Positions 43,561 through 63,840 of a stretch of DNA of 64,000 nt are shown piece by piece. This DNA is from Daucus carota subsp. sativus (taxonomy: Eukaryota; Streptophyta; Magnoliopsida; Apiales; Apiaceae): positions 41,884,390 through 41,948,389 of the forward strand of contig NC_030384.2 in assembly GCF_001625215.2 (NCBI RefSeq). Reading direction: 5' to 3'. Below the pieces are notes generated by a model, which was not told where the DNA came from, searched no databases, and saw only the letters and a list, made by a program, of their open reading frames with translations. The stretch's first letter is position 1; each line of letters opens with the position of its first letter. Made by a program: the position numbers and the translations under genes.

Positions 43561-45600
43561 GTTTTTTCGACAGTGCTCAGATCATAAAATTTTGTAACAT
43601 AGTATCTTGTAAATCATGGAAAATATTATACAATGATAAATCTATTGTTCTGTACATATCTCTCTTTGTTTCATAAATCTCCCTTCGCATAGGAAGAAAA
43701 AACTAAATCTGCAGTAGCTTCTGATTTAAATGATAATGAAGGATGCGATAACTTCATACTTATGAAGACATTAACAAACTTGATTCCATACTTTTGGCCC
43801 TAAAACTTTCATCTGGTTTATGATGATGAGGGCTGCACCTGTGCCTGCTTGCAAGGACTCTCACGGTACCTTAGAAATTGTGTTCCCTTCTCATTAAACC
43901 ACTGGAAGTTTAATTAGAATATTTATTTTCAAGATTAAATCAAGGTGGCGTTCATGCTTTGACGAGGACTATAATAATTAGAATCTTGCATAGCTGTTAA
44001 GATTCCACTTGTTTGCAAATATCAGACCGTACCTATTGAGATCTCAGAAATAATAGTAATCCATTGTAGGATCGAGAAGAGAACACATGGCGGTAGAGTA
44101 CTCGTGTGCATTATAATAACTTTACTCGTCGCACCTTGAACTTGCTTCAATGTGCAAATAATTTATTCATCAAAGCAATGAGAACACCCTGTAGTACATG
44201 TCGCAGACTATAGCATATGAACAACTTGATCAAAAAAATGTGTCATCAAGCTTGATAAGCCTACTGAATTCTCAGTTGGAGCACAAGTGTGCATACTTTA
44301 TTTAATTACTTTCAAGGCTGCCATTTTTTCCCTTGTTTCATACATCTTTTTAGTACTGCAGATTGACACTATCATTACTCCCAAGATCCTAAGCTTGATT
44401 CAATCTGTCCAGTCATTAGTTTAATTTAATTAACCCGATGATAACTCTACGGATTATTATATACGTGAATATCTTGATCACCTTAAGCAATCAATATAAT
44501 TGTACATGAGGAATACAAATTTAATCTTCCAAAGAAAGTTGCTTCATATCTTTCTAATTTTGAAAACACCTTACCTGTACATTAAGCTAGTGGATTTGGA
44601 TTTAGATTTCCCATGTCATGATTGTCGTCATACTACATCTTTTGGGTGTTCAATGAAAAACTAATCTTGATTCATATAATCTTTCCCCTTGATTCCTAAA
44701 CCACTGCAGTATGGTGGATTGGTAGTTAGATAAATTTTATGCAGTCGACATGAATGATAGTCTTCAATTCATATATATTCTAAATCCGACATAATATTTC
44801 CATGGAGGATACCTGAAATTGTCTGCTGCTGAGAACCTGTTTTCATATTAAAATTTGTTTGTCCAGACAAAATTTTAAAGTGATACCCTTTTCTCTATGT
44901 CTTCCAGCACCTTTTGGCCTACCCTAAAGTGATATCTTAACTAGATCATCAAGGTATTGCAGGCTGGTAACATCCTCCTATCCAAATCCAAACCATCCCA
45001 TAAGCAAAATTTTACTGCATCACTTTAGATTCCAGAATATGAATAAAGCAATAATGGCCACCTATTCCTTGTCTACAATACATGGTGACAACTGGCAATC
45101 CATCCGTGCAGTTATTTTGTTTATTTAGTTAGTTTTTTTTTTTGTGACAAATATTTAGTTTGTTTTCATTATCAGCAAGATGAATTCAGCAATAATGGCC
45201 ACCTTTCCCTTGTCTACAATACATGGTGGGAACTGGCAATCCATCCGTGCAGTTGGTTTCTTTATTTAGTTTGTCTTCATTAGCAGCAAGATGCATAGAA
45301 GGAGGCAATGTATGCGGGATAAATGAAGCTTTAGTATATGACACATGGAGGGAGCTGCAGATATTATGGGGATTATCTTTTTGTCTACTTTCTTCTGTAT
45401 AAATAAGTTATTAAACTTAACAGAAAAAACACCAGCTAGACCCTTTGAAATATATATTGCTTTACGAGCTGCAAAGGTTCCTTTTGTCCACAGACACTCT
45501 ACTATTATTGAGATCTGCGTTTCCTGAATCTTAGCAAGTTCTGAAGTCCAGCACATGAAAGCAAGTAAGTTATGATAATATGATTCCTTTTGCCTCCCAT
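43561..45600. other. Spacer between DUF241 genes 2 and 3
   Basis: About 2 kb with no gene. It includes copies of blocks also found after gene 1, and a duplicated segment: GCAATAATGGCCACCT, CTTGTCTACAATACATGG and CAATCCATCCGTGCAGTT occur from about 45048 and again from about 45190 (step about 140 bp). Near 45474 AGGTTCCTTTTGTCCACAGA is a diverged copy of the distal module found before genes 4 to 7. Confidence 0.6.
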
Positions 45601-46510: not shown

Positions 46511-47207
46511 TTCTTTTTCAAAAAGAAAACCATGTATTAGATAGAATACAACTGCATCTCCAATTTTTTGTGAGGGATGAGTTGTTGTATATGATAGAAC
46601 AGAAATTGTATATGAGGTATATTCAAATCAAAGTGAATACGTTATGAGAAACAACTTTTCTTATCAACTTCCAAATTTCTTATTTATTTAAGCACAAGAT
46701 GACAATTTAATACTTCCCTTTTCAATTATCTTCAAGAAAATAATGCAAAACTTAAATATATATTAGGCATATGGCTTTAATTTACATTTTAGCTTAGAGA
46801 TGAAAAGAAAATGGCCAGGTCACAAATTTAGCTGTGAAGTTGTGAGCTGGAACATTCAAAGGAAAAATAATACAGACAAGTCTTCCAGATAACATCTACA
46901 GTGATTATGTGCATATAGATTTAGCATGCAAATAATTCAGATTAATTAGTTACACTTTGATTTTATACCAGCCTAATTCTGTGAAGCATTGCTAGGTAAT
47001 TTACCAGCCTAATTCATGTTCCAACCTCTTTTTTTATATCCAGGAATTCGTGTGCTTTTATATTCTCAGAAAGTTATCGTTTTCAGCAATAAAATGCATA
47101 GTATACAAAGTAATGACAGCTTTTAAATAAAACACATGAGAGGCTAAAATTATTATCTCCCTTGTCTCCTTTTCCTTCATAAGAATTAAGGCATTAAATC
47201 GGCACCA
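46511..47207. other. Spacer after DUF241 gene 3
   Basis: The 3' flank and AT-rich spacer; no gene or element recognised. Confidence 0.4.
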
Positions 47208-47910
47208 GCTCTGTCCACTCTAATTATGAAGGTGGTGCAGAACCACTGAAAAGATTCTTAATGTTCTATAGGCAGGCTACAGAAGTTGGGTTTCTCCATC
47301 AAGATATGTTATAAACATGATTATAAAAATATCAGATATAATTTTGTCCTCCCTATGCCTACGCTTAAGAAGCATGGTTCTCGTGGTCATCACCACTTAG
47401 ATTATAAAAATTGATTTAGCTAATTGCTGATAAGCATGATCTTCATATATGGATCACGGTCATCGTTAATTAAATGACAGGCTATCAAGGTTCCTTCTGT
47501 CTGCAAAAACTATAGTTCTGTTGATATATGCACATTTTCCACAGCAGAACTTTGATTTCAAGAAATAATTAAAGCCTTAATGGTAGTGTCATGTCTAGAA
47601 GACTTCAGTAATCTACTGGTAGTTGATCATATAAAACGATAGACCATTTTATGATTGAACTCTCTGTGTCTGGGAGACTTTGATCCCATCGTGTTTGATT
47701 ATGTAATTTTTTTTTATTAGCTTATAATGCAAACAAAGTTGGAACGATCCTGAATTACAGCACGGTATGGTGTACAGAACATGAAAGGCCAATATGATTC
47801 TTTTTGTCTCCTCATCTTTATATAAGAGGTGCTAATGGCAAAACTAACATCAAACCAATATCCCGGCTCAGCATATTTCATCAAGCTATTCTCTTTATCC
47901 AATATATAAC
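47208..47910 (+). promoter_or_regulatory. A-type upstream module and core promoter of DUF241 gene 4
   Basis: This is the first of three copies of the A-type upstream block (others 52444-53173 and 63081-63453). Shared landmarks are AAAAGATTCTTAATGTTCTA (about 47247), GCATGATCTTCATATATGGA (47435), GACAGGCTATCAAGGTTCCT (47476) and TCTGTCTGCAAAAACTATA. The core promoter is GGCCAATAT (47788), GATTCTTTTTGTCTCCTC (about 47796) and TTATATAAGAGG (about 47818), some 90 bp before the start codon. Confidence 0.75.
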
Positions 47911-48729
47911 ATGGATGCCTTTAATGCAACCACGAAAAACATTGGCCATTCTCGTTCAATCAGCTTACCGTCCATACCACACCCTTCAGCCGCAAATGTT
48001 GAGGAGTTTTTGTGCAGGCTAAGGTCGTCAGAAGCCACATCCACTTCATCACTATGCAATAAATTAAATGGCCTTAAAGACTTGTATGAATGTCTTAATG
48101 ATTTGGTTCAATTACCAATAATGAATTCTGGCGATTCTGAGGAGGTCCTTGGTGCATCTATTAGGCTGTTGGATTTGTGCAACACAACAAAAGATGCATT
48201 TTCACAAATGAGAGCCTCAGTGCAAGATCTTGAGTCAGCTCTTCGAAGAAGAGAAACTGATATGTCAAGCAAACTCAGAAGCTACTTGATATGTATGGAA
48301 AAGGTCAACAAAATGGTTTCTAAATGCCTGGATAATTTGAAGATATCACAAAGTAAGAAAAGCAATCTGACTTCTACTGCTGTGAGCCTCCTGAGAGAAG
48401 TAGAAGAAGTCAGCGCAGCTATGTTTCAGTCCATTTTTTCATCAGCTAAACAAAATCGGTGGTCTTTGGTTTTCAAATCAACGCAATCCAAACGTGTACA
48501 CGAAGTCAGTGAAGGCAATAGCAATGAAGCTCAGAAAATGTTAATGGATATTAAAGCAATTTACAAGCAGAAGATAGACGTGCAATCTGATTTCTCGATG
48601 ATCCAAGAAACACAGAAGGGTTTGATGGCACTTGACATGAACTTGCAACAATGTGAGGAGGACTTAGACTGTATCTTTAGATCTTTGATCAAGACTAGAG
48701 TCTCTATTCTCAATGCCCTCAACCATTAG
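47911..48729 (+). CDS. DUF241/BPS1-like protein, gene 4 (type A)
   Basis: An intronless gene for 272 residues starting MDAFNATTKNIGHSRSISLP. Most similar to gene 6: both have the stretch EEVLGASIRLLDLCNTTKDA then FSQMRASVQDLESALRRRET. The C-terminus LMALDMNLQQCEEDLDCIFR then KTRVSILNALNH is intact. The predicted structure is helical with two or three coiled-coil-like segments and no membrane span. It is probably functional; role unknown. The 3' flank (TTGTAGTAGGATTACATAGC, TTTTAACGAGGGATCT) also matches that of gene 6, showing duplication of the whole unit. Confidence 0.88.
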   Translation: MDAFNATTKNIGHSRSISLPSIPHPSAANVEEFLCRLRSSEATSTSSLCNKLNGLKDLYECLNDLVQLPIMNSGDSEEVLGASIRLLDLCNTTKDAFSQMRASVQDLESALRRRETDMSSKLRSYLICMEKVNKMVSKCLDNLKISQSKKSNLTSTAVSLLREVEEVSAAMFQSIFSSAKQNRWSLVFKSTQSKRVHEVSEGNSNEAQKMLMDIKAIYKQKIDVQSDFSMIQETQKGLMALDMNLQQCEEDLDCIFRSLIKTRVSILNALNH

Positions 48730-49360
48730 CCTCGATTTGTGAATATTCATTTTGTAGTAGGATTACATAGCATCCTTTATCTTTTAACGAGGGATCTGTG
48801 TTTTGTGAATGATATGTAAAGATATTATTACAGCAGTATACTGAGATTGAAGCTAGTTTTGTTTAACAACCTAATATTATCTCCAAGTTCCAACTACTTC
48901 AAATATTATTATCAACCAAAACAATTACAGAAAACAATATAATTCCTAAACACAACTATTTGTGCTTAACCTCTTCCCGACTACAGTCATGGAGTTTAAG
49001 GAAATTAAGATGATCAAGCACGAACATTCTTTTGCAAAAGATAAGTAAATGAGTAATACACTAATTTCAGGGCACCAGAACTAAACCATTTGATTTGTTA
49101 ACTAAACAATAATCCGTGTAAGTGATCTTGTTGCATAACTACAGTACATTTTATTCATCTGCAATGCACCAGTGGTAATGAATGTGGTAAACTGGTAATG
49201 ACTTTTTTAAGCAATCCTATTAATCCCTTGCATTCTTATCACTGTTGTGCTGTCAGTTAACCGTTGATGCCTCTATTTTTCAAAGATGTCCCTACTTCTG
49301 TGCTAAATTCCCTATCCTATCTAGAGTCACAGAAGTAAGGAGATCACCAGATGCCAGAAA
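48730..49360. other. 3' flank of gene 4 and spacer
   Basis: About the first 200 bp match the 3' flank of gene 6 (54002-54180). After that no gene or repeat is recognised up to the hairpin array. Confidence 0.5.
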
Positions 49361-49790
49361 TTTTTTTTTACTACTTCTAGCGTCGGTTAAACATAAGGCG
49401 ATGCTAAAGGGTTACTTTTCAGTTGAGTAAAACCGACGCTTAAAGGGTCAGTTAGGCGCTGGACCGACGCTATAGGATCGATTTTATGCGTCGGTTGAGT
49501 AAAGACCGACTCTGCAGGCCTTATTTTAGGCGTCGGATGATTAAAGATCGACGCATTAGAGTCTGTTTTAGGCGTCTGTTGTTTATACCGACGCTAAAGG
49601 TCTGTTTTAGGCGTCGAGTGAGTAAAGACCGACGTTAAAGAGTCAATTTTAGATGTCAGTTCTTCATGACCGACGCGGAAGATTCAACACACATGATAAC
49701 GACACTTAAAGTATGTATAGGCTACGGCTCTCTATATAAACGACGCTAAAAGTACGATGCTAAAAGACAATTTTGCATTATTGAATGATA
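49345..49790. mobile_element. Array of GCGTCGGTT/AACCGACGC hairpin units, CACTA-like end
   Basis: Seven to eight units of about 33-45 bp each hold a GCGTCGGTT-like word and an inverted ACCGACGC-like word (for example GCGTCGGTTGAGTAAAGACC at about 49488). Successive units share spacers such as TCTGTTTTAG. Arrays of this kind are typical of subterminal regions of CACTA (En/Spm) transposons. The left neighbour GCCAGAAATTTTTTTTTACT could be a decayed CACTACAAGAAA-type end. No transposase and no opposite end were found. The array has no counterpart between genes 6 and 7. Confidence 0.55.
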
Positions 49791-50450
49791 AAGGTTGAAA
49801 GGGTACTTTTTACCTTGTCGCTTTTAAAACCTCTCTGCGTGATGAGATGCTAGTTATTATCTCAGGAATATATTATGTCAATTGGAAGAAATCTGAGAAT
49901 TGTACCAGCAAATAGTTTACATGTGGACTGGACAACAATACAAATTCATTAAGGAGCCGGCTTGTAGAAATTGTACAGCACAGACATAGCATTGCAGCTT
50001 CTGAGCTTCTGTCCCTGGTACGTAAGCCTACACAATTACAAACTGGTTGTCTGAAAATATTAGAAAACAATAATATTTTTAATCTAATAATTTAGACCTC
50101 CAAAAAGGTAGAAACAGCAAGAGTTTTGATTCCTAATAAAAGGCAAAATTTATATTAGTCAGATTTAGTAGTTTTTGTTGAATAATATGTGATCCTGTTG
50201 GGGCCTTTCTTTAAGACCTTAATGTATTAGATGAGTTGCTTACTTAAAACAGTATTAGTGCTCGGTTCAGGGAAGGGTCACGGGTTTAAGTCCTCCCACC
50301 CCAATTGTTTGATTTAATTATATGTTCGTCCTGATCCATATATGAAGCAAGTATGCAAACCATGAGCTAAGTGACCTCTTTTTAAAATCTTTAAGCCACA
50401 GGCAGAAAATGTTTCAAAATTTAGAAAAAGTGCAAATATATTAATTTAAG
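49791..50450. other. Spacer between genes 4 and 5
   Basis: No gene. A stretch near 50270-50300 (GGGAAGGGTCACGGGTTTAA) resembles a tRNA-type B box but no tRNA or SINE could be drawn. Confidence 0.4.
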
Positions 50451-50590
50451 ACAAATGAACTCAGATACATGATGGTCCTTCCTGATCTGCATAATAAGCC
50501 AAATAACCATTTGCTAAGAGACCTTCTCTTAAAAATTCTTTGAGCCACATGCAGAAAATGTATCTAAATTTAGGGAAATGCAAATATTTA
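50337..50590. repeat. Diverged tandem repeat of about 140 bp
   Basis: Two units start near 50337 and 50475. Each has GATCTGCAT or GATCCATATA, AGCCA or AGCAAGTATG, then AAGNGACCT, TTTAAGCCAC or TTTGAGCCAC, CAGAAAATGT and AAATTTAG. One unit only is present in front of gene 7 (61060-61170). Confidence 0.5.
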
Positions 50591-50749
50591 AATTTAGGCT
50601 ACTCATGATTTTGTAATGCGCTTCATTCTAATTATAAATGTATGTCTGGATTAAAAGACAGAGAAAAGATGAAATCGGTTGTTTATCATATTCACTTTTT
50701 ATAAATATTGGAATTCTTCCGAGACAACTAGCAAATGTATGATTGCTTA

Positions 50750-51289
50750 CACCTATATAAATTATCCCATATATGATTTGATGTAAATTCATTGCTGATG
50801 AGGCTGATCTTTATATCAGGAATTTAACTAATGACAGGCTGCCATGGTTCCTTCTGTTCCCAGACACAATTTGATCATTGAAATATGCAGATCTTCCATT
50901 GCATTTATACAGTGTTTATAAATATAAATCAAGCACAGTGGTACTCTTCATGTCTGGAAGACTCTGGCAAGCCACTCGTGGTTGGTTATATAATAGGAAA
51001 AACCATGCTATAATTGCATTCTGTTTGTATGCGAATCATTTAGCAATCTGCTCGTGTTTGATTAAATAAAGATTATTATATAGGTTGAAATGCCAACAAA
51101 GAGGGACAATTCCTGAATTTAAGCAACTTTAGGTGCCTAACACATGAAAAGCCAATATTTAATCATGTCAATAGGATTCCTTCCGTCTCCTCTGCATATA
51201 TAAAAGGTCTCAAAGGCTATTTAACTCACACCAGACTTTGAACTTAACATCTACTTAAGCTCTTCTCTCTTTTAAGTTACAAAATTAAC
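50750..51289 (+). promoter_or_regulatory. B-type upstream module and core promoter of DUF241 gene 5
   Basis: It matches the region before gene 7 (61310-61887) closely: TTGATGTAAATTCATTG, GATGAGGCTGATCTTTA, TGACAGGCTGCCATGGTTCC and ACTCTGGCAAGCCACTCGTG recur. The core promoter is AGCCAATAT (51152), GATTCCTTCCGTCTCCTC (51176-51193) and TATATAAAAGG (51197-51207). Confidence 0.78.
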
Positions 51290-52123
51290 ATGGAAGCCTG
51301 TACTGCAACCACAAAAAAGATGAACCATTCTCGTTCAATCAGCTTACCGTCCAGACCTCATCCTTCAGTAGCAAATGTAGAAGAGCATTTGTGCAGAGTA
51401 AGATCATCAAATGCAGCATCCACTTCATCACTGTGCAACAAACTAACTGGACTCGGTGACTTGTTTGGCTGTCTGGATGACTTGCTTCAGTTACAAACAG
51501 TGCAGTCTTGTGATTCTGAAGTTGTTCTAGGGGCATCTATTAGACTATTGGATTTGTGCAACTCAGCTAAAGATGCATTTTCACAAATTAGAGCTTCTGG
51601 TCAAGATCTTGAGTCAGCTCTACGAAGAAGAGAAGCTGATGTATCAAGCAAAGTTGGAAACTACTTGATCTGTGTGAAAAAGGTCAACAAAATGGTTTCT
51701 AAGAGCTTTGTTAATTTTAAGAAATCTCAAGATAAGAAAAGCAACGAGTCTTCTGCTATTCTGAAAGTCCTTAAAGAAGTTGAAGAAGTCAGTGTATCAG
51801 TATTTCAGTCCCTCTTCTCATCAGTCTTTCCTGCAAATGAAACATCAAAGCAAAACAGGTGGTCAATGGTTTTCAAGTCAACACAATCCAAACGTGTACA
51901 TGAAGCCAGTAAAGACAACGAAGTTCAGAAAATACACTTGAATTTGCAAGCTCTATACCAGCAGAAAAGAAATAAGCAATCTGATCTCTTGAGAATTCAA
52001 GAAACACAAAAGTGTTTGATGGCATTGGACATGAACATGCAACAAGTAGAAGAGGATTTAGATTGTATTTATAGATCTTTGATCAAGACCAGGGTCTCTG
52101 TTCTAAATGTTGTCAACCAATAG
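51290..52123 (+). CDS. DUF241/BPS1-like protein, gene 5 (type B)
   Basis: An intronless gene for 277 residues. The start MEACTATTKKMNHSRSISLP is shared exactly with gene 7. It has SRPHPSVANVEEHLCRVRSS, GASIRLLDLCNSAKDAFSQI, LESALRRREADVSSKVGNYL and FSSVFPANETSKQNRWSMVF. It ends LMALDMNMQQVEEDLDCIYR then KTRVSVLNVVNQ. It is probably functional; role unknown. Its 5' and 3' flanks match those of gene 7, so the pair arose by duplication of a larger block. Confidence 0.88.
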   Translation: MEACTATTKKMNHSRSISLPSRPHPSVANVEEHLCRVRSSNAASTSSLCNKLTGLGDLFGCLDDLLQLQTVQSCDSEVVLGASIRLLDLCNSAKDAFSQIRASGQDLESALRRREADVSSKVGNYLICVKKVNKMVSKSFVNFKKSQDKKSNESSAILKVLKEVEEVSVSVFQSLFSSVFPANETSKQNRWSMVFKSTQSKRVHEASKDNEVQKIHLNLQALYQQKRNKQSDLLRIQETQKCLMALDMNMQQVEEDLDCIYRSLIKTRVSVLNVVNQ

Positions 52124-52443
52124 ACAATTAGGCCAAAATAGCTTTTTTACGGAATCTACCAGTGTTTTTGTACATGAATCAGAAGTAAATGTGTAAATGA
52201 TTGAAATCAAAATATTATGATAGAAAAGTTCACTCCAGATTCAATATATTTATTATATCCATCATTTGTGCAATATTATAAAGAGAAATTTGTTGCTGTT
52301 TTATCTTGATTTAAAGGAAAGGTAAAAAAATATAAAGAAGTGAAAAATTCGTCAGTAATAATATGCAGCTACATTTAGCTGGACATAACTACTACATAAG
52401 TACTAAAAATTATATGATGAATCCATAACAGAGTGCTTTCATG

Positions 52444-53173
52444 CAGATGTTTATCATTTCCTCAACCAGGTCAACTTATCTGGTTAGCCTAAACAACTCT
52501 ATTATGAGCCACTGAAAAGATTCTTAATGTTCTATAGGTAGACTACACAGTCAGCGCTCCATCCAGATATATTATATACAAAATTAAGACAATATCAGAT
52601 AAAATCTTGTCCTCCCTATGCCTACGGTTAAGAAACATGGTACTCGTGGGCATTGCTACTTTAATTAGAAAAATTGATCTCACCAATTGCTGATGAGCAT
52701 GATCTTCATATATGGATCACGGTCATTGTTAATTAATGACAGGCTACTAAGGTTCCTTCTGTCTGCAAAAACTATACTATCATTGATGTATGCACATCTT
52801 CCACAGCAGCAGTTTGGTTTTTAAGAGATAAACAAAGCCATAATGGTAGTGTTGTGTATAGAAGACTTCAGTAATCCACTCGTGGTTGATCATTTAAAAA
52901 GAAAAACCATTATATGATTGAACTCCATGTCTGGAAGACTTTGATCCCATCGTGTTTGATCATATTAAAGTTTCTTATCACATTATAATGCAAACAAAGT
53001 TGGAATGGTACTGAATGATAGCAAGGTATGGTGTACATACAGCAAACAAAGGCAAATATGATTCTCTTTGTCTCCTCGTCTTTATATAAAAGGTGCCAAT
53101 GGCAATTGTAAGATCAAACCAATATATCCAGACTTCACATTTCATCAAGTTATTCCTTTATCCGATAGATAAC
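52444..53173 (+). promoter_or_regulatory. A-type upstream module and core promoter of DUF241 gene 6
   Basis: The second copy of the A-type block, from CAGATGTTTATCATTT through AAAAGATTCTTAATGTTCTA (52513), CATATATGGATCACGGTCAT (52707) and AAGGTTCCTTCTGTCTGC (52749). The core promoter is GGCAAATAT, GATTCTCTTTGTCTCCTC (53060-53077) and TATATAAAAGG (53083-53093). The coding start is the ATG at 53174, not the in-frame ATG at 53093, which overlaps the TATA region. Confidence 0.78.
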
Positions 53174-54001
53174 ATGGAAGCCTTTACTGAAACCACAAAA
53201 AACAATGGTCATTCTCGCTCAATCAGCTTACCTTCCATCCCAACCCCTTCAGCCGTAAATGTAGAGGAGCTCCTGTGCAGAATAAGGTCGTCAGATGCCA
53301 CATCCACTTCATCACTATGCAACAAACTAAATGGCCTTAAAGACTTGTATAAATGTCTTGATAATTTGATTCAGTTACCAATTATGCATTCTAGTGATTC
53401 TGAGGAAGTTCTTGGTGCATCTATTAGGCTGTTGGATCTGTGCAACACAACGAAAGATGCATTCTCACAAATGAGAGCCTCTGTGCAAGATCTTGAGTCA
53501 GCTCTTCGAAGAAGAGAAACTGATATGTCAAGCAAACTCAGAAGCTATTTATTATGTATGGAAAAGGTCAACAAAATGGTTTCTAAATGCCTGTATCATT
53601 TGAAGAAATCGCAAAATAGGAAAAGCAATCAGACTTCTACTGTTGTGATCCTCCTGAGAGAACTAGAAGAAGTCAGTGCAACTATGTTTCAGTCCCTTTT
53701 TTCATCAACCGTTCCATCAAAACAGAATCTGTGGTCAATGGCTTTCAAATCAACACAATCCAAGCGTGTGCACGGAGTCAGTGAAGGCAATACCAATGAA
53801 GCTCAGAATATGCAAATGGATATTAAAGCAATTTACAAGCAGAAAATAGACATGCAATCAGATTCCTTGATGATACAAGAAATACAGAAGGGTTTGATGG
53901 CACTTGACATGAACTTGCAACAATGTGAGGGGGATTTAGACTGTATTTTTAAATCTTTGATCAGGACTAGAGTCTCTGTTCTTAATGCGCTCAACCGTTA
54001 G
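53174..54001 (+). CDS. DUF241/BPS1-like protein, gene 6 (type A')
   Basis: An intronless gene for 275 residues beginning MEAFTETTKNNGHSRSISLP. The open frame extends upstream to 53093, but that start lies in the core promoter and the family N-terminus begins at 53174. It is highly similar to gene 4 (identical over EEVLGASIRLLDLCNTTKDA and FSQMRASVQDLESALRRRET). The end LMALDMNLQQCEGDLDCIFK then RTRVSVLNALNR differs slightly from the usual NH end. It is probably functional; role unknown. A retroelement lies about 330 bp downstream. Confidence 0.88.
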   Translation: MEAFTETTKNNGHSRSISLPSIPTPSAVNVEELLCRIRSSDATSTSSLCNKLNGLKDLYKCLDNLIQLPIMHSSDSEEVLGASIRLLDLCNTTKDAFSQMRASVQDLESALRRRETDMSSKLRSYLLCMEKVNKMVSKCLYHLKKSQNRKSNQTSTVVILLRELEEVSATMFQSLFSSTVPSKQNLWSMAFKSTQSKRVHGVSEGNTNEAQNMQMDIKAIYKQKIDMQSDSLMIQEIQKGLMALDMNLQQCEGDLDCIFKSLIRTRVSVLNALNR

Positions 54002-54332
54002 TCTAATATTCACTTTGTAGTAGGCTTACATAGCATCCCTTACCTTTTAACGAGGGATCTATAATCTATAGATTATGTAACGATGGCATTACAGCAGTAT
54101 ATTGATGTTGAAGCTAGTTTCTTTTGACAAACTAATCTTTCTTTCAGCCTCTTCAAGTATTATTAACAACCAAAACAATGAAAAAATTTATAATATTTTT
54201 AATTTTTACCTCCACAATGTGAGAAACTATTTAAAGTTATATGTTTCCGACAAACAGGTGAAATTCAAATTAGTCAGATTTGGTTGTCCTAATCTGTAAT
54301 AGTAAAATAGACAAGATCTACTCAGATATAGA

Positions 54333-55624
54333 TGATGTGTTAAATAATAACTAACCGCAAGCGCACGGTGTCTATTGTAGTGTAGACTGGCAAATGCGGG
54401 TCGTATCCTCAAGGAGACAGATGTTATCAATTCTATTTAGTCACATTCAATTGTTTCCAAATCAAACGATGATTGAAAGAAATATTTTTAACTAACTACT
54501 ACAACTAAATAACACTAGCTAAAAAGACAAGAAAATAATATATTAAAAATCCAGGGCAATCAGGTCTACCATGCTTACACAATGACTGGCTCTAAGCTAA
54601 AGCAATTAAAGTGGTCAAATAACAAGAGTATGTTAATCTCTCTCAAGTATCAACACTCTCGAAACATGATTACACGTATAATCACTTTTAGTAATTCGAT
54701 TAATCAGGTAATTAAAACAAGGTTAATCTCTCTCGAGTATTAACGCTTTCAGAAATCCAATGATGCTCTCGCACTCAAATTCAATTCTGCTAATTGTATG
54801 TGTGCCTCTAGTAGTATATCTCTCGATTATACTCCTATTCGCATAGAATCAATTCATGATATCGGCCGATTACATAAATCAATATTAAAACGTATCAATT
54901 AGAATTAACCAATCAATCAAATCACTGTTAAATCATGCCAAGATCATAGCACAAACATGGCTTCCCCTTAAACCCTAGAACACACTACTCGATACTAATT
55001 AAACAACTAGAATAATTAAAAGACATAATTAAACTAACAAGTAAAGAGAAGAAAACTATAGAAGAAAACCTTTATTAACCTTCATTGTTGTCATCCAAAA
55101 AAGAGTCATGGCCTCTCCTCTAAGTTTCTCTCTAACCCTAACCTACTCTAATATTGTACAATGATAAAACTAATCCTCTCTCTAATAATATATGTCTTTT
55201 AATATTTAAAACTAATATACAAATAAAACTCCAAAACCAAGTAGGATTTAGTCTCAAAATTCGCAGCTTTCTGTTCTGTCCAGTTTTCGGGCCTTTACAG
55301 TTGGACTTTGCTTCTTGGACTACTTCTGAATTAAAGAGAATTTCAAGGGCTTCGCGTGGGCTGTAAGATCGTCCAATTCTGACACCCGGAACTCAAGATA
55401 TGGCCCAAACAGTGTAGAAATCGGGTAAAACCCAATAAATCCGAATTTTAGTAGAAATTAGCTACAAAATAGCTATTTTAGCTTCAAATCCTTCTCAACT
55501 TGGAATTCTTTATTTCCTACAATAAAACAATAAAATCTATTAAATAAATATCCAAATCAGTGCAAAATATAATTAAATATGAGAATAAAATCATATAGAA
55601 TATATATAAAAATATATTCTATCA
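54333..55624 (-). repeat. Left LTR (3' LTR of the minus-strand element)
   Basis: This 1,292-bp repeat begins TGATGTGTTAAATAATAACT and ends ATATTCTATCA on the plus strand. It is nearly identical to the right LTR. Confidence 0.92.
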
Positions 55625-56759
55625 AACATCCCCACACTAAGCTTTTGCACGTCCTCGGGCAAATAAGCGAAATAAAATCTAAGTACTAACTAACTAACAC
55701 CACTTTCGTAGATGAGACGATTGCATTGAGCATATGCAACAAGCCGTTAAACCCCTAGGCAGCCCTAGTAGGACGAGTTTTGTCTCGTGAGGGTTTATAG
55801 TGAATCTACCCACAAAATTCATTATTTTCTACCAAGTCTCAAACATGCAACTACTATGAATGCAATCTAAATGAATAAGACTAAAAACAAATCATGAAAA
55901 CATCAACCTCGTCAATATATAATCCTCAGAATATGCAACAATCAAGGAATTCATCTATCTCACATACTAGTCATGCAACTTTTCCACTGCAAGTACGGAG
56001 TGCATCGTGTGTGCTCAACATGCCCTCTAGTGAAACAAAACAGAGACCAACAAACTTCAACAGAGTCTTAATCATGATTCGTTTATCAGAATAATGCTTA
56101 AACACTTCGTTACATTAGAGTCAACTACGGCTTAGGGTCACAAGAGAATTTCTATGCCTCTCCTATATATTTCACTTTTTTTTTCATGCTCGGTCTAAGG
56201 TCGGGACGCTTCTCAGGGTAAGTAAGTTACGACCACCATAAGACTTTGCTAGCTCATTTTTTTTTTCTATTTTTTTTTAAGTCAAGTAATTCTCCAGTAA
56301 CCAAGGGTTGTGAAAAGTCACCAAGAAAATTTATTTCTAGTACAATTGCACTTAATACCAGCACAAGTACATGGATCGTCCCTTTCAAAATTTACCACCC
56401 GTTGATCTCAAAAGGAGTATTCGATACTTTATTTGCAATATTCTATTTTTTTTTCAATTTTTTTTTAGAAAGGCATATACATCCTAAAGTTCCCCTAAAC
56501 TTAAGAATTACATACTCTAAGCTCAAAAGGGAATAGTCAAAATTCTACGTCCGACTCATAACTAAGACTCAAGAATTAAGCTAGTCTAAGTCTTGTCTCT
56601 AGAGCATCAAATAGTGTAAATAAAATTTCCGCACAAGCAATTTCTAAGCATGCAAGACATCGCACATGATCAAGATTACTAGCCAAGAAATTATGCAAAT
56701 AAACTCATCATGAGAAATTAACTTGGTATTATTTACTTTCATGAAATATGCAAGCTAAA

Positions 56760-56760
<1 letters not shown>

Positions 56761-56811
<51 letters not shown>
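56761..56811. repeat. (TA)n microsatellite inside the LTR element
   Basis: About 25 TA units; simple sequence likely to vary between individuals. Confidence 0.9.
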
Positions 56812-56814
<3 letters not shown>

Positions 56815-58121
56815 TACTAAAAAAATGCATACAAAATTAATAACTACATGTTCTAATTTAAATGCAACTAACATGAATTTCCTAACTTTAAGACATGGCA
56901 ATATACAATTTTTTTTTTAATTTTTCTATTTTTTTTGAATTTTATAATATATAATTTTTTTTTTTGAATTTATAATCATTGAGAAACCATCCCCACACTA
57001 AAGTGGTTCATTGTCCTCGATGAACAAATATGACATGGATATATAAATATATTAATATAATTATATAATATAAGTTAAGAAGAAAACTCCCCTGAAATGT
57101 CTTTGAACTGTGAATTGGCTCTTGACTCCTCAGATTTTTATTAAAGTGATGCACTTCCCAAACAAACGCATTAATTGGCACAACGGCGGGAAGGTGACAC
57201 TTAAAGTCTTCCTTGTAGAGGTGCAAGGATCAAATCCTACCATCCTCATTTCTATATTTTTAAATAACACAAGCATCTTCCAATCTTTCAAATCTGTCCA
57301 AGAGACTTTCACAGGAATGAGCTGGACTATGGAATGGACACTGGACGCAGCACTGTTGGACTGGGCTTGGAGCATGGGCTGAATGAGAACCGAGAGTTGA
57401 TCACAGAAGGCTAGGAAGTGACGTGCTCCTCCTAGGCAATGTGATGTGTGATTTGCGGGCTGACAGCAACTCTGATGGGCTGGATTTCGTAGAGCAAGTA
57501 ATGGGCTTGATAACATGAACTTGGAGAGGCAAATGGGCTTGAGGCCCATCTGCCTTAAAGAAAGGTTAAACGCGTCAATAGCTATTGCACGCCCGTTCAA
57601 AATCTACTGGGCACTGTGCACGTTGGCAGAAGCTCCCGCACTGCCGGCACTGAATCAAGTTGACCGTGCCAATACATCTGCTCCCTTCTGTTTTTTTTTT
57701 CCCCTCACAGACAGTTGCATCCCATATAGTAGCTGTTTTTTTTTCTTTTTCAAACCCATTTCTTCTTAATTTTTACAAATCATTGCGGTGTCTGCAAGCT
57801 CAATAGTTTACATTTCCATATCTGAAACACTTCACACGAATTCATCAAGGCATCTTATGGGAGTAAAAAAAAATAAAAATAAAAAATTTTAGCTCCTAAA
57901 AAAAATACAAAAATATATTATATAAATTAAATAATAAAAACCTTGGGTTGCCTCCCAAGAAGCGCTTTTTTAAAATCATTAGCTTGACTTCTTACCTCCA
58001 CCTTCTCGAACAAAACCTCGCCATCACTAATAATATCATGAATATAATTAGTTGTTTTGATCCGGCAAAAATTCTCCAAACAAGCATTATTAAATTTAAT
58101 TGTCACATTAAAAAATAATAA

Positions 58122-59369
58122 TCAAGCAAGAGATTTCAAAATTTTGGAGAAATTTGTGACAAAACAACGATAAAATTCACAGCCAGAAAAATGAACTCCC
58201 TGAATATTCACACGAGGTGGAGGCTCAGGTGGCGGCTTTTCGAAGCTCCTCACTTTCTCAGGAGCTAGTTGAATTTCTTGGCTTCTCACATCAATGAATA
58301 TGGGATTAGTATCACTTTGCCCATCTTCCGAGAATTGAAGTACAAGAGCCTTTTGGAATAGATCACCCACCAAATTTTGAGAAAGATTTCCTAGGACAAT
58401 TCTTGACATCTCTTCAACCATGAAACATGTATTCTCATGTACAAGAGTAGAGGTTGGAGTAAAAGCAAATTTATCATTATCAAACCATTGATCCACTTTA
58501 GTCATGTCATCCATCCGAGTAGGCATTAGTATTTCAGGCACATATGTTGGAATAGACACAAGAACCAATTTTGCATTGCTTTCCTCGCTAACCCCATCAT
58601 CAAGCACGTGGTCTACAACAACAACATCATCAATTTCATCATAAATGGCACGATCCTCCTCTTTATCCGTAAGCACATCATCAACACAGATCGAGAAATT
58701 ATCACACTCTTCATCACTTGCAAGTATGACAGTATTTATGCCCATCTCTGGTTGAATAAATGAAGAGGGTGAGAGGGATTCGGTTTGCCATGTAGTGGAA
58801 GAACTAGCCAACTGTTCAATTTGAACCTCCATCATTAGATTTTGAGTTTTTAGCTCATTGATCTCCTGCATCACTTCTTTCAACATCTCGTTAGTTTTTT
58901 CAGCTTCCATAGCCACATCAATTAGAGAAAATTGTGGCTCTTCCGGTAGAGAATATTGATATTGTTGCAGTGGCTCATACTGCTCTTCATAATATTGTTG
59001 TTGAAACTGCGGTTGATCATTATATGAAAAATTCTGAAAACCATTGTCCGTGTAAGAGAAACTTGGTTGACCCATCCATTCTTGATCACAAGAATTAGAA
59101 TACTGGTTGTACTCATATTCTTCACGATAATCATTCATCGGTCCCAATTGAGCATTCTGAGAATTGAAGACATTGTACGAGCATTCATAAGCATAATGAC
59201 CCTGAACACCACAAACTTGACAAAAGTTGTAAGTTTTCGGGGCAACTTGTGACATCTCATTAATACTCATCGGACGCATAGTAGGCTCTGTAGCATTCAG
59301 TGAGGCATTTCCACGAGTATATGCCTCGATCAGGGAAGATAGATGTGCAAAGTTATCAGCTCCCTCCAT
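58122..59369 (-). other. Gag-like reading frame of the LTR element
   Basis: A long minus-strand frame whose likely start is MEGADNFAHLSSLIEAYTRG. It has a CCHC zinc-knuckle-like motif (CQVCGVQGHYAYEC) near the N-terminus, a Gln/Tyr-rich stretch and an acidic C-terminal half. It resembles the capsid-side region of Athila/Tat-type elements and their non-autonomous derivatives. Internal DNA near 57940-57975 carries the GGTTGCCTCCCAAGAAGCGC motif common in such elements. Recorded as part of a transposon, not a host gene. Confidence 0.65.
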
Positions 59370-59522
59370 TGTAAACCTGAAAGAAAAAAACACAAGCCAA
59401 GAAAACACAGTAAAATCCGCCTCAATCGGAACAAGGGTTCCAACGAGGCAAAGGAAACAATCTAGATAACCAAACAAAACTAATAGAAACTAGCCGTCTC
59501 CCCGGCAGCGGAGCCAAAAACT

Positions 59523-60817
59523 TGATGTGTTAAATAATAACTAACCGCAAGCGCACGGTGTCTATTGTAGTGTAGACTGGCAAATGCGGGTCGTATCCTC
59601 AAGGAGACAGATGTTATCAATTCTATTTAGTCACATTCAATTGTTTCCAAATCAAACGATGATTGAAAGAAATATTTTTAACTAACTACTACAACTAAAT
59701 AACACTAGCTAAAAAGACAAGAAAATAATATATTAAAAATCCAGGGCAATCAGGTCTACCATGCTTACACAATGACTGGCTCTAAGCTAAAGCAATTAAA
59801 GTGGTCAAATAACAAGAGTATGTTAATCTCTCTCAAGTATCAACACTCTCGAAACATGATTACACGTATAATCACTTTTAGTAATTCGATTAATCAGGTA
59901 ATTAAAACAAGGTTAATCTCTCTCGAGTATTAACGCTTTCAGAAATCCAATGATGCTCTCGCACTCAAATTCAATTCTGCTAATTGTATGTGTGCCTCTA
60001 GTAGTATATCTCTCGATTATACTCCTATTCGCATAGAATCAATTCATGATATCGGCCGATTACATAAATCAATATTAAAACGTATCAATTAGAATTAACC
60101 AATCAATCAAATCACTGTTAAATCATGCCAAGATCATAGCACAAACATGGCTTCCCCTTAAACCCTAGAACACACTACTCGATACTAATTAAACAACTAG
60201 AATAATTAAAAGACATAATTAAACTAACAAGTAAAGAGAAGAAAACTATAGAAGAAAACCTTTATTAACCTTCATTGTTGTCATCCAAAAAAGAGTCATG
60301 GCCTCTCCTCTAAGTTTCTCTCTAACCCTAACCTACTCTAATATTGTACAATGATAAAACTAATCCTCTCTCTAATAATATATGTCTTTTAATATTTAAA
60401 ACTAATAATATACAAATAAAACTCCAAAACCAAGTAGGATTTAGTCTCAAAATTCGCAGCTTTCTGTTCTGTCCAGTTTTCGGGCCTTTACAGTTGGACT
60501 TTGCTTCTTGGACTACTTCTGAATTAAAGAGAATTTCAAGGGCTTCGCGTGGGCTGTAAGATCGTCCAATTCTGACACCCGGAACTCAAGATATGGCCCA
60601 AACAGTGTAGAAATCGGGTAAAACCCAATAAATCCGAATTTTAGTAGAAATTAGCTACAAAATAGCTATTTTAGCTTCAAATCCTTCTCAACTTGGAATT
60701 CTTTATTTCCTACAATAAAACAATAAAATCTATTAAATAAATATCCAAATCAGTGCAAAATATAATTAAATATGAGAATAAAATCATATAGAATATATAT
60801 AAAAATATATTCTATCA
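59523..60817 (-). repeat. Right LTR (5' LTR of the minus-strand element)
   Basis: This 1,295-bp repeat is nearly identical to the left LTR; the one difference noticed is a 3-bp longer AATAATA run at about 60403-60410. Confidence 0.92.
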
Positions 60818-60822
60818 ATAGA

Positions 60823-61310
60823 GTATAGTGATTATGTTCATGCAGTTATTCTAAATTTATACTTTAGCTAGGGCATGCAAGTTAGTGAATCGCGTAGCTA
60901 GGACAACTAAGCGAGTTAGCCTTAGCAGTTGAAAAAATTGAATACCAGTCTGTCATTATTCTCAATGTTTACAATCTGTAAGACAAATTATTTAGGTTTT
61001 AAAGCAAAAAAAGCTTGGTTAGATCAGTAAGACAAACACCACTATATATGATGTTTTTCCTGTTCAGCATATGAAGCACGCATGCATGTTACTGATAGCT
61101 AAGTGACCTCTTGTTAATTAATCTTTAAGCCACACTCAGAGATTTATTTGAATTGAGGATAATGCTAGGCTACTTATGAATCTGTAATGCATCTCGTTTT
61201 AATAAGAAATGTATGTCTAGTTGGAAAAATACAAATTACATGGATTCAATTGTTCATCATATTCACCTTTCAGAATTATGTGATTTCCTCCTAGGCAACT
61301 AGCGAATGTA
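60823..61310. other. Spacer right of the LTR element
   Basis: No gene. The part from about 61050 (AGCATATGAAGCACGCATGC, GCTAAGTGACCTCT, CTTTAAGCCACA) corresponds to 50335-50650 before gene 5, so it belongs to the B-type block. Confidence 0.5.
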
Positions 61311-61887
61311 TAATTGCTTACACCTAAATAAATCATCTAATATATGATTTGATGTAAATTTCATTGTTGATGAGGCTGATCTTTAAAAAAGGGATTTCGG
61401 ATCATATTGATTGTTAGATAATGACAGGCTGCCATGGTTCCTTCTGTCCCCAGACACAATATGATCATTGAGATATTCACATCTTCTATTGCATTTATTA
61501 AGTTTTTAGAAATATAAATCAAGCAATAGCGGTACTCTTCATGTCTGATAGACTCTGGCAAGCCACTCGTGGTTGATTATATAATAAGGAAAACCATGCA
61601 ATAATTGCATTCTCTTTGTAAACGAATCATTTAGCAATCTGCTCGTGTTTGATTAAATAAAAATTTCTATATAGGTTGAAATGCCAACAAAGGGGAAACA
61701 TATACGAAATTTAAGCAATTGTAGGTGCATAACACATGAAAAGCCAATATTATTATCATGCCAGTAGGATTCCTTTTGTCTCCTCTGCATATATAAAAGG
61801 TCTCAAAGGCTTTGTTAACTCATACCAAACTTCGAACTTAACATCTCATCAAGCTCTTCTCTTTTTCTTTCTAATTACAAAATTAAC
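61311..61887 (+). promoter_or_regulatory. B-type upstream module and core promoter of DUF241 gene 7
   Basis: It matches 50750-51289 along its length. The core promoter is AGCCAATAT (61742), GATTCCTTTTGTCTCCTC (61768-61785) and TATATAAAAGG (61790-61800), about 90 bp before the start codon. Confidence 0.78.
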
Positions 61888-62706
61888 ATGGAAGCCTGTA
61901 CTGCAACCACAAAAAAGATGAACCATTCTCGTTCAATCAGCTTACCTTCCAGGCCTCATCCTTCAGTAGAAGTTGTAGAAGAGCAACTGTGCAGAGTAAG
62001 GTCATCAAACGCGGCATCCACTTCATCATTCTGCAATAAACTAACCGGCCTCAACGAATTGTTTGAGTGTCTGGATGACTTGCTCCAGTCACAAACTATG
62101 CAGTCTTCTGATTCTGAAGATGTTCTCAGGGCATCTATTAGGCTATTGGAATTGTGCAACTCTACTAAAGATGCATTTTCACTAATGAGATCTTCTGTTC
62201 AAAATCTTGAGTCATCTCTACGAAGAAGAGAAGCTGATGTATCAAGCAAAGTTGGAAACTACTTGATCTGTGTGAAAAAAGTCAACAAAATGGTTTCTAA
62301 GAGCTTTACTAATTTCAAGAAATCTCATGATAAAAACCGTGACTCTCCTGCTATTCTGAGCCTCCTAAAACAAGTTGAAGAAGTCAGTATAACTGTATTC
62401 GAGTCCCTCTTCTCATCAGTCTTTCCTGCAACATCAAAGCAAAACAAGTGGTCAATGGTTTTCAAGTCGACACAATCCAAGCATCTACATAAAGACAATA
62501 ACAACCAAGTTGATAAAATACAATTGAACTTGGAAGCTCTGTACCAGCAGAAAAGAAATTCGCAATCTGATCTGTTGAGAATTCAAGAAACGCAAAAGTG
62601 TTTGATGGGATTGGACATGAACATGCAACAAGTTGAGGAGGATCTGAATAGTCTTTACAGATCTTTGATCAAGACCAGGGTCTCTATTCTAAATAGCATC
62701 CTTTAG
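61888..62706 (+). CDS. DUF241/BPS1-like protein, gene 7 (type B')
   Basis: An intronless gene for 272 residues. Its N-terminus MEACTATTKKMNHSRSISLP is identical to gene 5, as are long internal stretches such as LRRREADVSSKVGNYLICVK. It lacks a few residues relative to gene 5 around the FPA(NE)TSKQN region. The C-terminus ends RVSILNSIL and lacks the usual N-H/N-Q pair, so the last residues differ from all other copies. It is otherwise intact; role unknown. Confidence 0.87.
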   Translation: MEACTATTKKMNHSRSISLPSRPHPSVEVVEEQLCRVRSSNAASTSSFCNKLTGLNELFECLDDLLQSQTMQSSDSEDVLRASIRLLELCNSTKDAFSLMRSSVQNLESSLRRREADVSSKVGNYLICVKKVNKMVSKSFTNFKKSHDKNRDSPAILSLLKQVEEVSITVFESLFSSVFPATSKQNKWSMVFKSTQSKHLHKDNNNQVDKIQLNLEALYQQKRNSQSDLLRIQETQKCLMGLDMNMQQVEEDLNSLYRSLIKTRVSILNSIL

Positions 62707-62908
62707 TTTTTCTGTATGGGGAACAAATGTGTAAATGAATTGAACTCAAAGTCAATATACATTACATAAAAATAGTTCAGCTTCATATCCAGATCTGTTA
62801 TACTCTCTTATTGCAGTTATTTGAGCAACATCTAAAAGTTGAAATTTCAGGTCTATTTTCTCATGATTTAAAGAAAAAGTGTGCAGCTATATTAGCTCGT
62901 AACATCTT

Positions 62909-63063
62909 GGGTGGCAATGTCAGACCCCAAACCTAATTGACCCGAAATCGACCCAAAATATCGAAAAAGAATTTCATTCCTAAAAAGATTATCAATTTTA
63001 CTAAATTTTAAGTGATTTTATCTTGAGCCAAAATCGACCCGTTTATCGACTTACCCAAACACC
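62909..63063. mobile_element. Possible small hAT-like insertion
   Basis: GGGTGGCAATGTCAGACCC on the left and TTACCCAAACACCACTG on the right are of inverted type, with internal GACCCGAAATCGACCC and ATCGACCCGTTTATCGAC. The segment is absent from the matching 3' flank of gene 5. No target duplication was confirmed. Confidence 0.3.
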
Positions 63064-63080
63064 ACTGTTGCTGCTTCTAT

Positions 63081-63453
63081 GCAGATGTTTATGATCTTAA
63101 CCAGGTCAACTTTGCTGGCTAGCTCAAACAACTCTAATTATGAGCGAGGTGATGCAGAACGATGAAAGATTCTTAATGTTGTAGCGGTGGGCTACATTAG
63201 ATAGGTTTTTATTGGACAATATCTTGTCGTCCCTGTGCATATGGTTAAGAAGCATGCACTCGTGGGCATCACTAATTTAATCACAAAAATTGATCTAACT
63301 GCTGATAAGCATGATCTTCATATATGGATCATGCCCATTGTTAATCCAACACAGACTGTTAAGGTTCCTTCTGTCTGCAAAAATTATGCTAGCATTAATA
63401 TATGCACGCTCAGCAACAGCAATTTGGTTTTCATGAGATAAACAAAGCCAGCG
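63081..63453 (+). promoter_or_regulatory. Orphan A-type upstream module (third copy, no gene)
   Basis: It matches 52444-52833 before gene 6 and 47208 onward before gene 4: CAGATGTTTATGATCTTAAC, AAAGATTCTTAATGTT (63165), GCATGATCTTCATATATGGA (63308), AAGGTTCCTTCTGTCTGCAA (63360) and GAGATAAACAAAGCCA (63437). The match stops at about 63453. The remaining 340 bp of promoter and the coding region of an A-type gene are missing here. Confidence 0.75.
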
Positions 63454-63589
63454 TTGGGGTTTTAATACGAGTTTAATGCCTAAAAATATTAGCTTCCTGG
63501 GCCTGTGCCCCAAGAGGAGAAGCTGATCTTTTATAATTGAAATAAGACCTTCAATTTAGATTGATAAACTGAGTAGAACTCCCAACAGA

Positions 63590-63662
63590 TCCGTTGTAGT
63601 CTAGTTGGTCAGGATACTCGGCTCTCACCCGAGAGACCCGGGTTCAAGTCCCGGCAACGGAA
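63590..63662 (+). tRNA. trnE-CUC: tRNA-Glu (CTC anticodon)
   Basis: A 73-base cloverleaf starts TCCGTTG and closes with CAACGGA plus A. The A box is TAGTCTAGTTGG, the anticodon arm is CTCGGCTCTCACCCGAG (anticodon CTC, glutamate), and the B box is GGTTCAAGTCC at 63641-63651. It has no intron, and CCA is not encoded, as expected for a nuclear gene. A T-run at 63666-63671 serves as the Pol III terminator. The sequence matches the plant cytosolic tRNA-Glu consensus, so it is likely active. Confidence 0.96.
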
Positions 63663-63665
63663 ATC

Positions 63666-63671
63666 TTTTTT
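63666..63671 (+). terminator. Pol III terminator of tRNA-Glu
   Basis: A run of six T residues three bases after the tRNA 3' end; a standard RNA polymerase III stop. Confidence 0.85.
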
Positions 63672-63840
63672 ACTTCCCTTTTTCTTGGGCTGGTTTTTTG
63701 AATCTCCGTAGTATACTAGTAATCTAGTATGTAGCCCTCAAACTTTGTCCAATATAAAATTGGGCCGAGTTTCAGAATTTGAATTCATGGTACCGATATG
63801 AACTCAAACTTAAGTTCATCAAAGATAACTGGGCTGGGCT

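Follow-up and report, generated by a model that had tools for sequence, protein, structure and literature searches.

The window analysed here is a stretch of 64,000 nucleotides of carrot (Daucus carota subsp. sativus) DNA, positions 41884390-41948389 of contig C4 in the DH1 v3 assembly. C4 is read as chromosome 4, the chromosome number being assumed from the contig number. The window holds seven genes, each a single open frame, and all seven match the Pfam profile PF03087 (BPS1/DUF241) with 160-228 bits in a profile search, for which the curated Pfam cut-off is 23.5 bits. An eighth member of the family, gene 8, lies just outside the window at 65524-66219, also as one open frame (209.9 bits), and the eight genes are alike in covering nearly the whole of the 238-position profile. 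"BPS1" is the label given by Pfam. We take PF03087 to be the family formerly called DUF241, and Arabidopsis BYPASS1 itself presumably falls under a different Pfam model. Across the whole genome, a family search returned 33 matches (8 on C4, 16 on C5, 5 on C8, 2 on C3 and 1 each on C6 and C2). Our subject is the run of genes 4 to 7, which stand in the order A-B-A'-B', together with Px, a piece of A-type upstream sequence to the right of B' (Table 1). The start codon of gene 6 is the ATG at 53174, which corrects an earlier, sequence-only reading of the window.

Table 1. Features of the A-B-A'-B' region and of the DNA adjoining it on the right (window coordinates)
Feature	Positions	Strand	Basis
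P4, distal upstream of gene 4 (A), at the left end of the duplicated block	47207-47576	+	match to 63121-63449
Gene 4 (A), BPS1/DUF241, 272 aa	47911-48729	+	PF03087 E 8.5e-49; tree partner gene 6
A-B spacer piece, block 1	50064-50172	+	colinear with 54172-54287 of block 2
Gene 5 (B), BPS1/DUF241, 277 aa	51290-52123	+	PF03087 E 1.4e-51; tree partner gene 7
B-side flank before A'	52434-52488	+	like 63072-63123; not recognisable upstream of gene 4 (local and three-way alignments)
Inferred duplication junction	52500-52510	+	left Px-side-like, right gene-4-like; by eye from three-way alignments
P6, distal upstream of gene 6 (A')	52506-52840	+	alignments with P4 and Px
Gene 6 (A'), BPS1/DUF241, 275 aa	53174-54001	+	PF03087 E 2e-49, read from one codon further upstream
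Target-site duplication ATAGA, left	54328-54332		flank comparison
Long terminal repeat (LTR) retrotransposon	54333-60817	-	LTRs 54333-55624 and 59523-60817; target-site duplication
Target-site duplication ATAGA, right	60818-60822		flank comparison
Gene 7 (B'), BPS1/DUF241, 272 aa	61888-62706	+	PF03087 E 9.5e-47; tree partner gene 5
Px, distal upstream of a putative third A unit, lacking core promoter and gene	63121-63450	+	groups with P4 and P6
DNA abutting Px at the break; no second copy found	63451-63589		genome searches
tRNA-Glu (CTC) gene, 140 bp past the break	63590-63662	+	ARAGORN

The sequence-only reading had held that genes 4 and 6, like genes 5 and 7, resemble each other in coding sequence and in both flanks, and that the order A-B-A'-B' is the copy of a two-gene block. 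Self-BLAST bears out the first of these points (alignments of at least 60 columns are listed; other BLAST comparisons are listed from at least 50 columns or, for chromosome 5, at least 80). The A units align over 1719 columns at 84.8% identity (47240-48943 / 52506-54194), and the B units over 2502 columns at 76.1% (50447-52840 / 61028-63450), the latter alignment extending into the next A flank. The spacer between A and B is likewise colinear in the two blocks, its matching pieces being 70.7% identical over 116 columns (E 7e-10), and block 1 carries an extra ~1.1 kb (48944-50063) that has no clear counterpart in block 2. B' stands 7.9 kb away from A' owing to an LTR retrotransposon of 6,485 bp, and when this element was removed and its flanks were joined, the same chain of matches between the blocks was obtained.

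The flanks of each pair were additionally scored against 200 dinucleotide shuffles. For the 5' flanks, z was 143 between genes 4 and 6 and 139 between genes 5 and 7; for the 3' flanks, the values were 34 and 13. As controls, all four pairings of an A with a B gene gave z values of -0.4 to 1.2 for the 3' flanks and were clearly related in their 5' flanks (39.5-49.6), and gene 3 compared with the other four genes gave 2.6-4.6 (3') and 6.1-10.8 (5'). Because these 5' controls also score, part of the 5' flank similarity is family-wide and predates the block copy. Ungapped flank identity amounts to 83.6% for the A 5' flanks, 80.8% for the A 3' flanks and 85.8% for the B 5' flanks.

A protein tree, the check that the sequence-only reading had proposed, was built from 29 of the 33 family matches, leaving out two damaged chromosome 5 copies and the two weakest matches (C6 and C2). 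Of the sequences used, one from C8 began without its initial residues because its locus ended there, gene 6 was one residue longer at the start, and a TTG served as the first codon of gene 3. The tree unites genes 4 and 6 with support of 100/99 and genes 5 and 7 with 100/98. Two contrary outcomes had been named beforehand, a tree lacking these pairs and flanks alike only at chance level; both pairs were recovered, and the flanks lie far above chance. Synonymous divergence (dS) is 0.258 between genes 4 and 6 (95% interval 0.18-0.36) and 0.238 between genes 5 and 7 (0.15-0.34), with overlapping intervals, so that both pairs are of one age. The ratio of nonsynonymous to synonymous divergence (dN/dS) is 0.29 for the A pair and 0.44 for the B pair, and since both bootstrap intervals lie below 1, the A and B copies look constrained.

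The tree pairs, the equal dS, and the colinear spacer and flanks together give good support for the duplication of one A-B block (47240-52505), the second copy of which occupies 52506-63120. Separate duplication of A and of B, with the A-B-A'-B' order arising by coincidence, is very improbable: single-gene duplication is known in this family, from six near-identical gene-3-like copies on chromosome 5, but here it would have to reproduce a colinear spacer, a shared B-to-A flank and the same dS in both pairs.

To the right of B', similarity to A upstream sequence sets in again. P4 aligns with Px in self-BLAST at 70.3% identity (47207-47576 / 63121-63449, E 1e-47), and the right end of Px falls at 63449 or 63450 in two BLAST alignments; the outer ends of the whole repeated region had been placed at 47208 and 63453 from the sequence alone, within a few bases of these positions. 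In some of the Px analyses the right end was set at 63455 or 63456, thereby including 5-6 unrelated bases. Over windows a few bases longer than those in Table 1, the ungapped identity of P4 is 84.6% to P6 and 76.7% to Px. The three regions form a group (97/97, and 96/95 in a second analysis) separate from P5, P7 and five upstream regions taken from chromosome 5. Within the group, P4 and P6 are nearest each other (94/93; polarised sites 12 versus 3 versus 3), so that P4 and P6 are likely the closest relatives, with Px outside.

A TATATAA motif occurs 91-98 bp before the ATG in all four of genes 4 to 7 (pattern match). Px ends ~335 bp short of the position where an ATG would be expected, in agreement with the ~340 bp first estimated, and because it stops before the TATATAA position it is, as far as can be judged from its sequence, distal upstream DNA only, without core promoter and gene. 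The term "orphan promoter", under which it had been described, is consequently not apt. The extent first assigned to this piece, 63081-63453, stands in part: A upstream similarity does run from 63121 to ~63450, and 63081-63120 is instead flank shared with the B side before gene 6. In our reading Px is the remnant of a third A unit, one that probably predates the block copy.

Searches for the gene that would have followed Px gave negative results. Between 63451 and 64998, the best protein match to gene 6, gene 7 or gene 3 reaches only E 0.27; in the 47.5 kb to the right, gene 8 alone gives a protein match below E 1, with no remnant of a third A gene and no third B; and the 11 contigs of the genome contain no additional A-like gene by our search. 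A 98-bp A/B-like fragment on chromosome 1 (C1:7861018-7861115, minus strand) is unlikely to be the missing gene, as it starts at an ATG and is nearest to gene 7, with 75% identity over 32 aa to the start of that protein, the closest of the three tried; no further match to these three proteins was found in the 10 kb around it. Gene 8 itself lies only 2.1 kb to the right of Px, and two elements resembling miniature inverted-repeat transposable elements (MITEs) take up ~830 bp between them, which might suggest that Px belongs to gene 8 and was pushed apart from it by insertions. This we find barely credible, since gene 8 falls in another subfamily, grouping with C5:7315470 (100/97), and the similarity between these two loci starts only at 64999, upstream of the gene. 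Tandem arrays are prone to assembly errors, and such an error at 63450 could conceal a third A gene. That explanation is also most improbable, given that the 131 kb examined contain no N, that the copies are only ~80-85% alike outside the genes and that the 11 contigs yielded no further A-like gene.

Genome searches with 63451-65478 and with 63456-63832 left 63451-63589 unmatched elsewhere, except for a few bases by the tRNA gene. The 22 other genomic places that match 63456-63832 do so only around the tRNA (query 122-232); the search with this query skips very common words, and a single copy is thus not proven. We find no support for the idea that an inserted transposon made the break at 63450: 63456-63832 has no other copies bar tRNA-Glu, and the MITE-like elements lie further right. 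The first of these (~63841-64439) has the ends TAGGG...CCCTA, an 8-bp repeat GCTGGGCT on both sides and related copies genome-wide, and we take it to be hAT-like. The second (~64735-64966), with the ends CTCCCTCCGTCCC, TA on both sides and matches up to 99% identical elsewhere, is presumably Stowaway-like. In the chromosome 5 array of the family, a short match at 64171-64255 is the sole counterpart to any of 63456-64998, and no tRNA was found in the four chromosome 5 loci scanned.

The likely site of the duplication junction is at the other end of the second block. Left of ~52505, 55 alignment columns before A' resemble the Px side, and matches there to the region upstream of gene 4 are only short and weak; the Px stretch in this alignment reached only to 63127, so that most of the 33 bp common to P4 and Px lay outside it. 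At the junction, ~15-20 bp of the other two copies are absent from A', as read by eye. Tested as a hybrid, the junction is Px-like on its left and P4-like on its right, but the switch coincides with the margin of the shared region, and the rival groupings of P4, P6 and Px have a p-value of 0.080 in the approximately unbiased (AU) test. The likely junction is at ~52505, at the start of A'. Px had previously been interpreted either as the remnant of a lost third block or as a crossover point; the evidence favours both elements of that alternative, at separate sites, with Px as the third-unit remnant and the likely junction at ~52505.

The A upstream repeats need not have driven this junction. 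An end-joining event could have placed the copy beside a third A unit, or three full A-B blocks could have existed and been cut back by a deletion at the right end. The position of the junction, at the edge of the shared region, would suit a mechanism independent of homology, and array decay is common in the sister array on chromosome 5, in which two damaged copies and further fragments lie beside 14 open genes. Three full blocks, however, should have left some coding trace of a third B or A to the right, where none was found, and under end-joining it would be a coincidence that an A upstream region begins at either end of the copied block, whereas an exchange accounts for this directly. We therefore regard this pair of scenarios as unlikely, albeit the most serious competitor to unequal exchange between the A upstream regions.

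Several observations weigh against such an exchange and against the part assigned to Px. P4 and Px share only ~33 bp (47207-47239) to the left of the junction, which thus falls at the margin of their similarity, and for this reason homology-driven exchange is not distinguished from an end-joining tandem duplication. Under a stricter trim, support for P4 with P6 drops to 90/90, and both rival groupings have an AU p-value of 0.080. The 3' flanks of genes 5 and 7 are patchy, at 54.5% identity in a global alignment with large gaps (332 positions), although their local similarity is clear. A weak DNA match between the region upstream of gene 5 and 63529-63578 (53 columns, E 0.026), the best of any A or B unit in 63451-64998, leaves room for faint upstream similarity past the break. 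Finally, the loss of a third A gene is inferred from its absence to the right of Px.

The element between A' and B' has the features of an LTR retrotransposon, namely near-identical LTRs, TG...CA ends (TGATGT...CTATCA) and ATAGA on both sides. Its two LTRs show 0 substitutions in ~1,292 aligned positions and differ by one 3-bp indel. The element appears very young, and because the LTRs carry no substitutions its insertion would be the last event at the locus. The only frame scanned in it, an open frame at 58122-59477 (451 aa), gave a weak zinc-knuckle match below the Pfam cut-off. The family is repeated in the genome, 38 other places matching its LTR among 40 of 972 candidates scored.

Comparison with chromosome 5 sets these events in a longer history. 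Six chromosome 5 genes join the A pair in the protein tree (96/91), with the B pair outside, and on account of this topology the A-B split would precede the split between the chromosome 4 and 5 arrays. The dS values give no clear backing for that order, being 0.55-0.69 between A and B, 0.51-0.61 from chromosome 5 to A and 0.44-0.65 from chromosome 5 to B. The two C4/C5 pairs that were bootstrapped are older than the block copy: gene 3 with C5:7347937 has a dS of 0.58 (0.43-0.79, pairwise alignment; 0.537 in a joint alignment), and gene 8 with C5:7315470 one of 0.644 (0.48-0.92).

On balance, we consider it likely that the A-B block was copied by unequal crossing-over at A upstream regions and that Px was left from a third A unit. 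The earliest steps would have been the divergence of A from B and that of the chromosome 4 array from the chromosome 5 array (dS ~0.44-0.69). A third A unit would then have arisen on chromosome 4, giving an array in the order A - B - third A unit prior to the block copy. Two copies of this array could have paired out of register, the upstream region of A against that of the third A unit, and an unequal exchange at the left edge of those regions, at a dS of ~0.25, would have copied the A-B block. Its product would have kept the upstream piece of the third unit at the right end (63121-63450) and acquired a hybrid start before A'. Before or after this duplication, the third unit may have lost its core promoter and gene through a deletion or another rearrangement that joined 63450 to the tRNA-Glu DNA. 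The LTR element would have entered between A' and B' last, very recently. The mechanism is ordinary, with nothing new in kind. A more speculative extension, which we think doubtful, is that the upstream regions of the A genes keep on seeding unequal exchange, in which case carrot accessions would vary in the number of A-B blocks and Px would mark an array still changing in size.

Elsewhere in the window, an open frame on the minus strand at 36600-37937 matches AAA ATPase and FtsH extracellular domains, and another at 2560-3501 shows a partial O-fucosyltransferase domain match. Upstream of gene 3, at 45036-45277, lie two direct copies of 101 bp that are 88% alike.

The chromosome 5 array (C5:7315470-7380451) comprises, by the family search, 14 open genes and two damaged copies, together with further fragments. 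It resembles the chromosome 4 array in the order of its genes, with gene-3-like genes, A/B-like genes and a terminal gene-8-like gene. In contrast to that array, it has expanded separately: its six A/B-like genes form one group (100/100) next to the A pair, and it shows no A-B-A'-B' order. Several broken or partial A/B-like copies lie among intact ones at C5:7324500-7349500 (L012-L014) and at L029, which indicates that gene decay occurs there. At C5:7369597-7380451, six gene-3-like copies spaced ~2,033 bp apart, with nearly identical proteins, form a very recent single-gene tandem array.

Searches of open-licence papers for DUF241 brought up no description of this carrot cluster, a search too limited for the cluster to be called undescribed, and the main text of the carrot genome paper (PMC10581907) contains neither "DUF241" nor "BPS1". 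The cluster belongs to a family for which few studies came up in the literature searched, and different accessions could be compared at it. As a worked example, it shows clearly how plant gene clusters grow, with a block copy, a partial end unit, transposon insertions and decay in one stretch; as a clear but ordinary case, it alters no general view. From unequal crossing-over (non-allelic homologous recombination) as known in plant clusters, the locus differs in nothing of kind: homology-driven exchange itself is not proven here, and that a likely older partner piece is still visible is no more than a convenience. It shares with that process the head-to-tail arrangement on the same strand, the colinear spacers and the single age of both genes, as well as a block that ends at sequence common to two sites and a partial unit at the end of the array.

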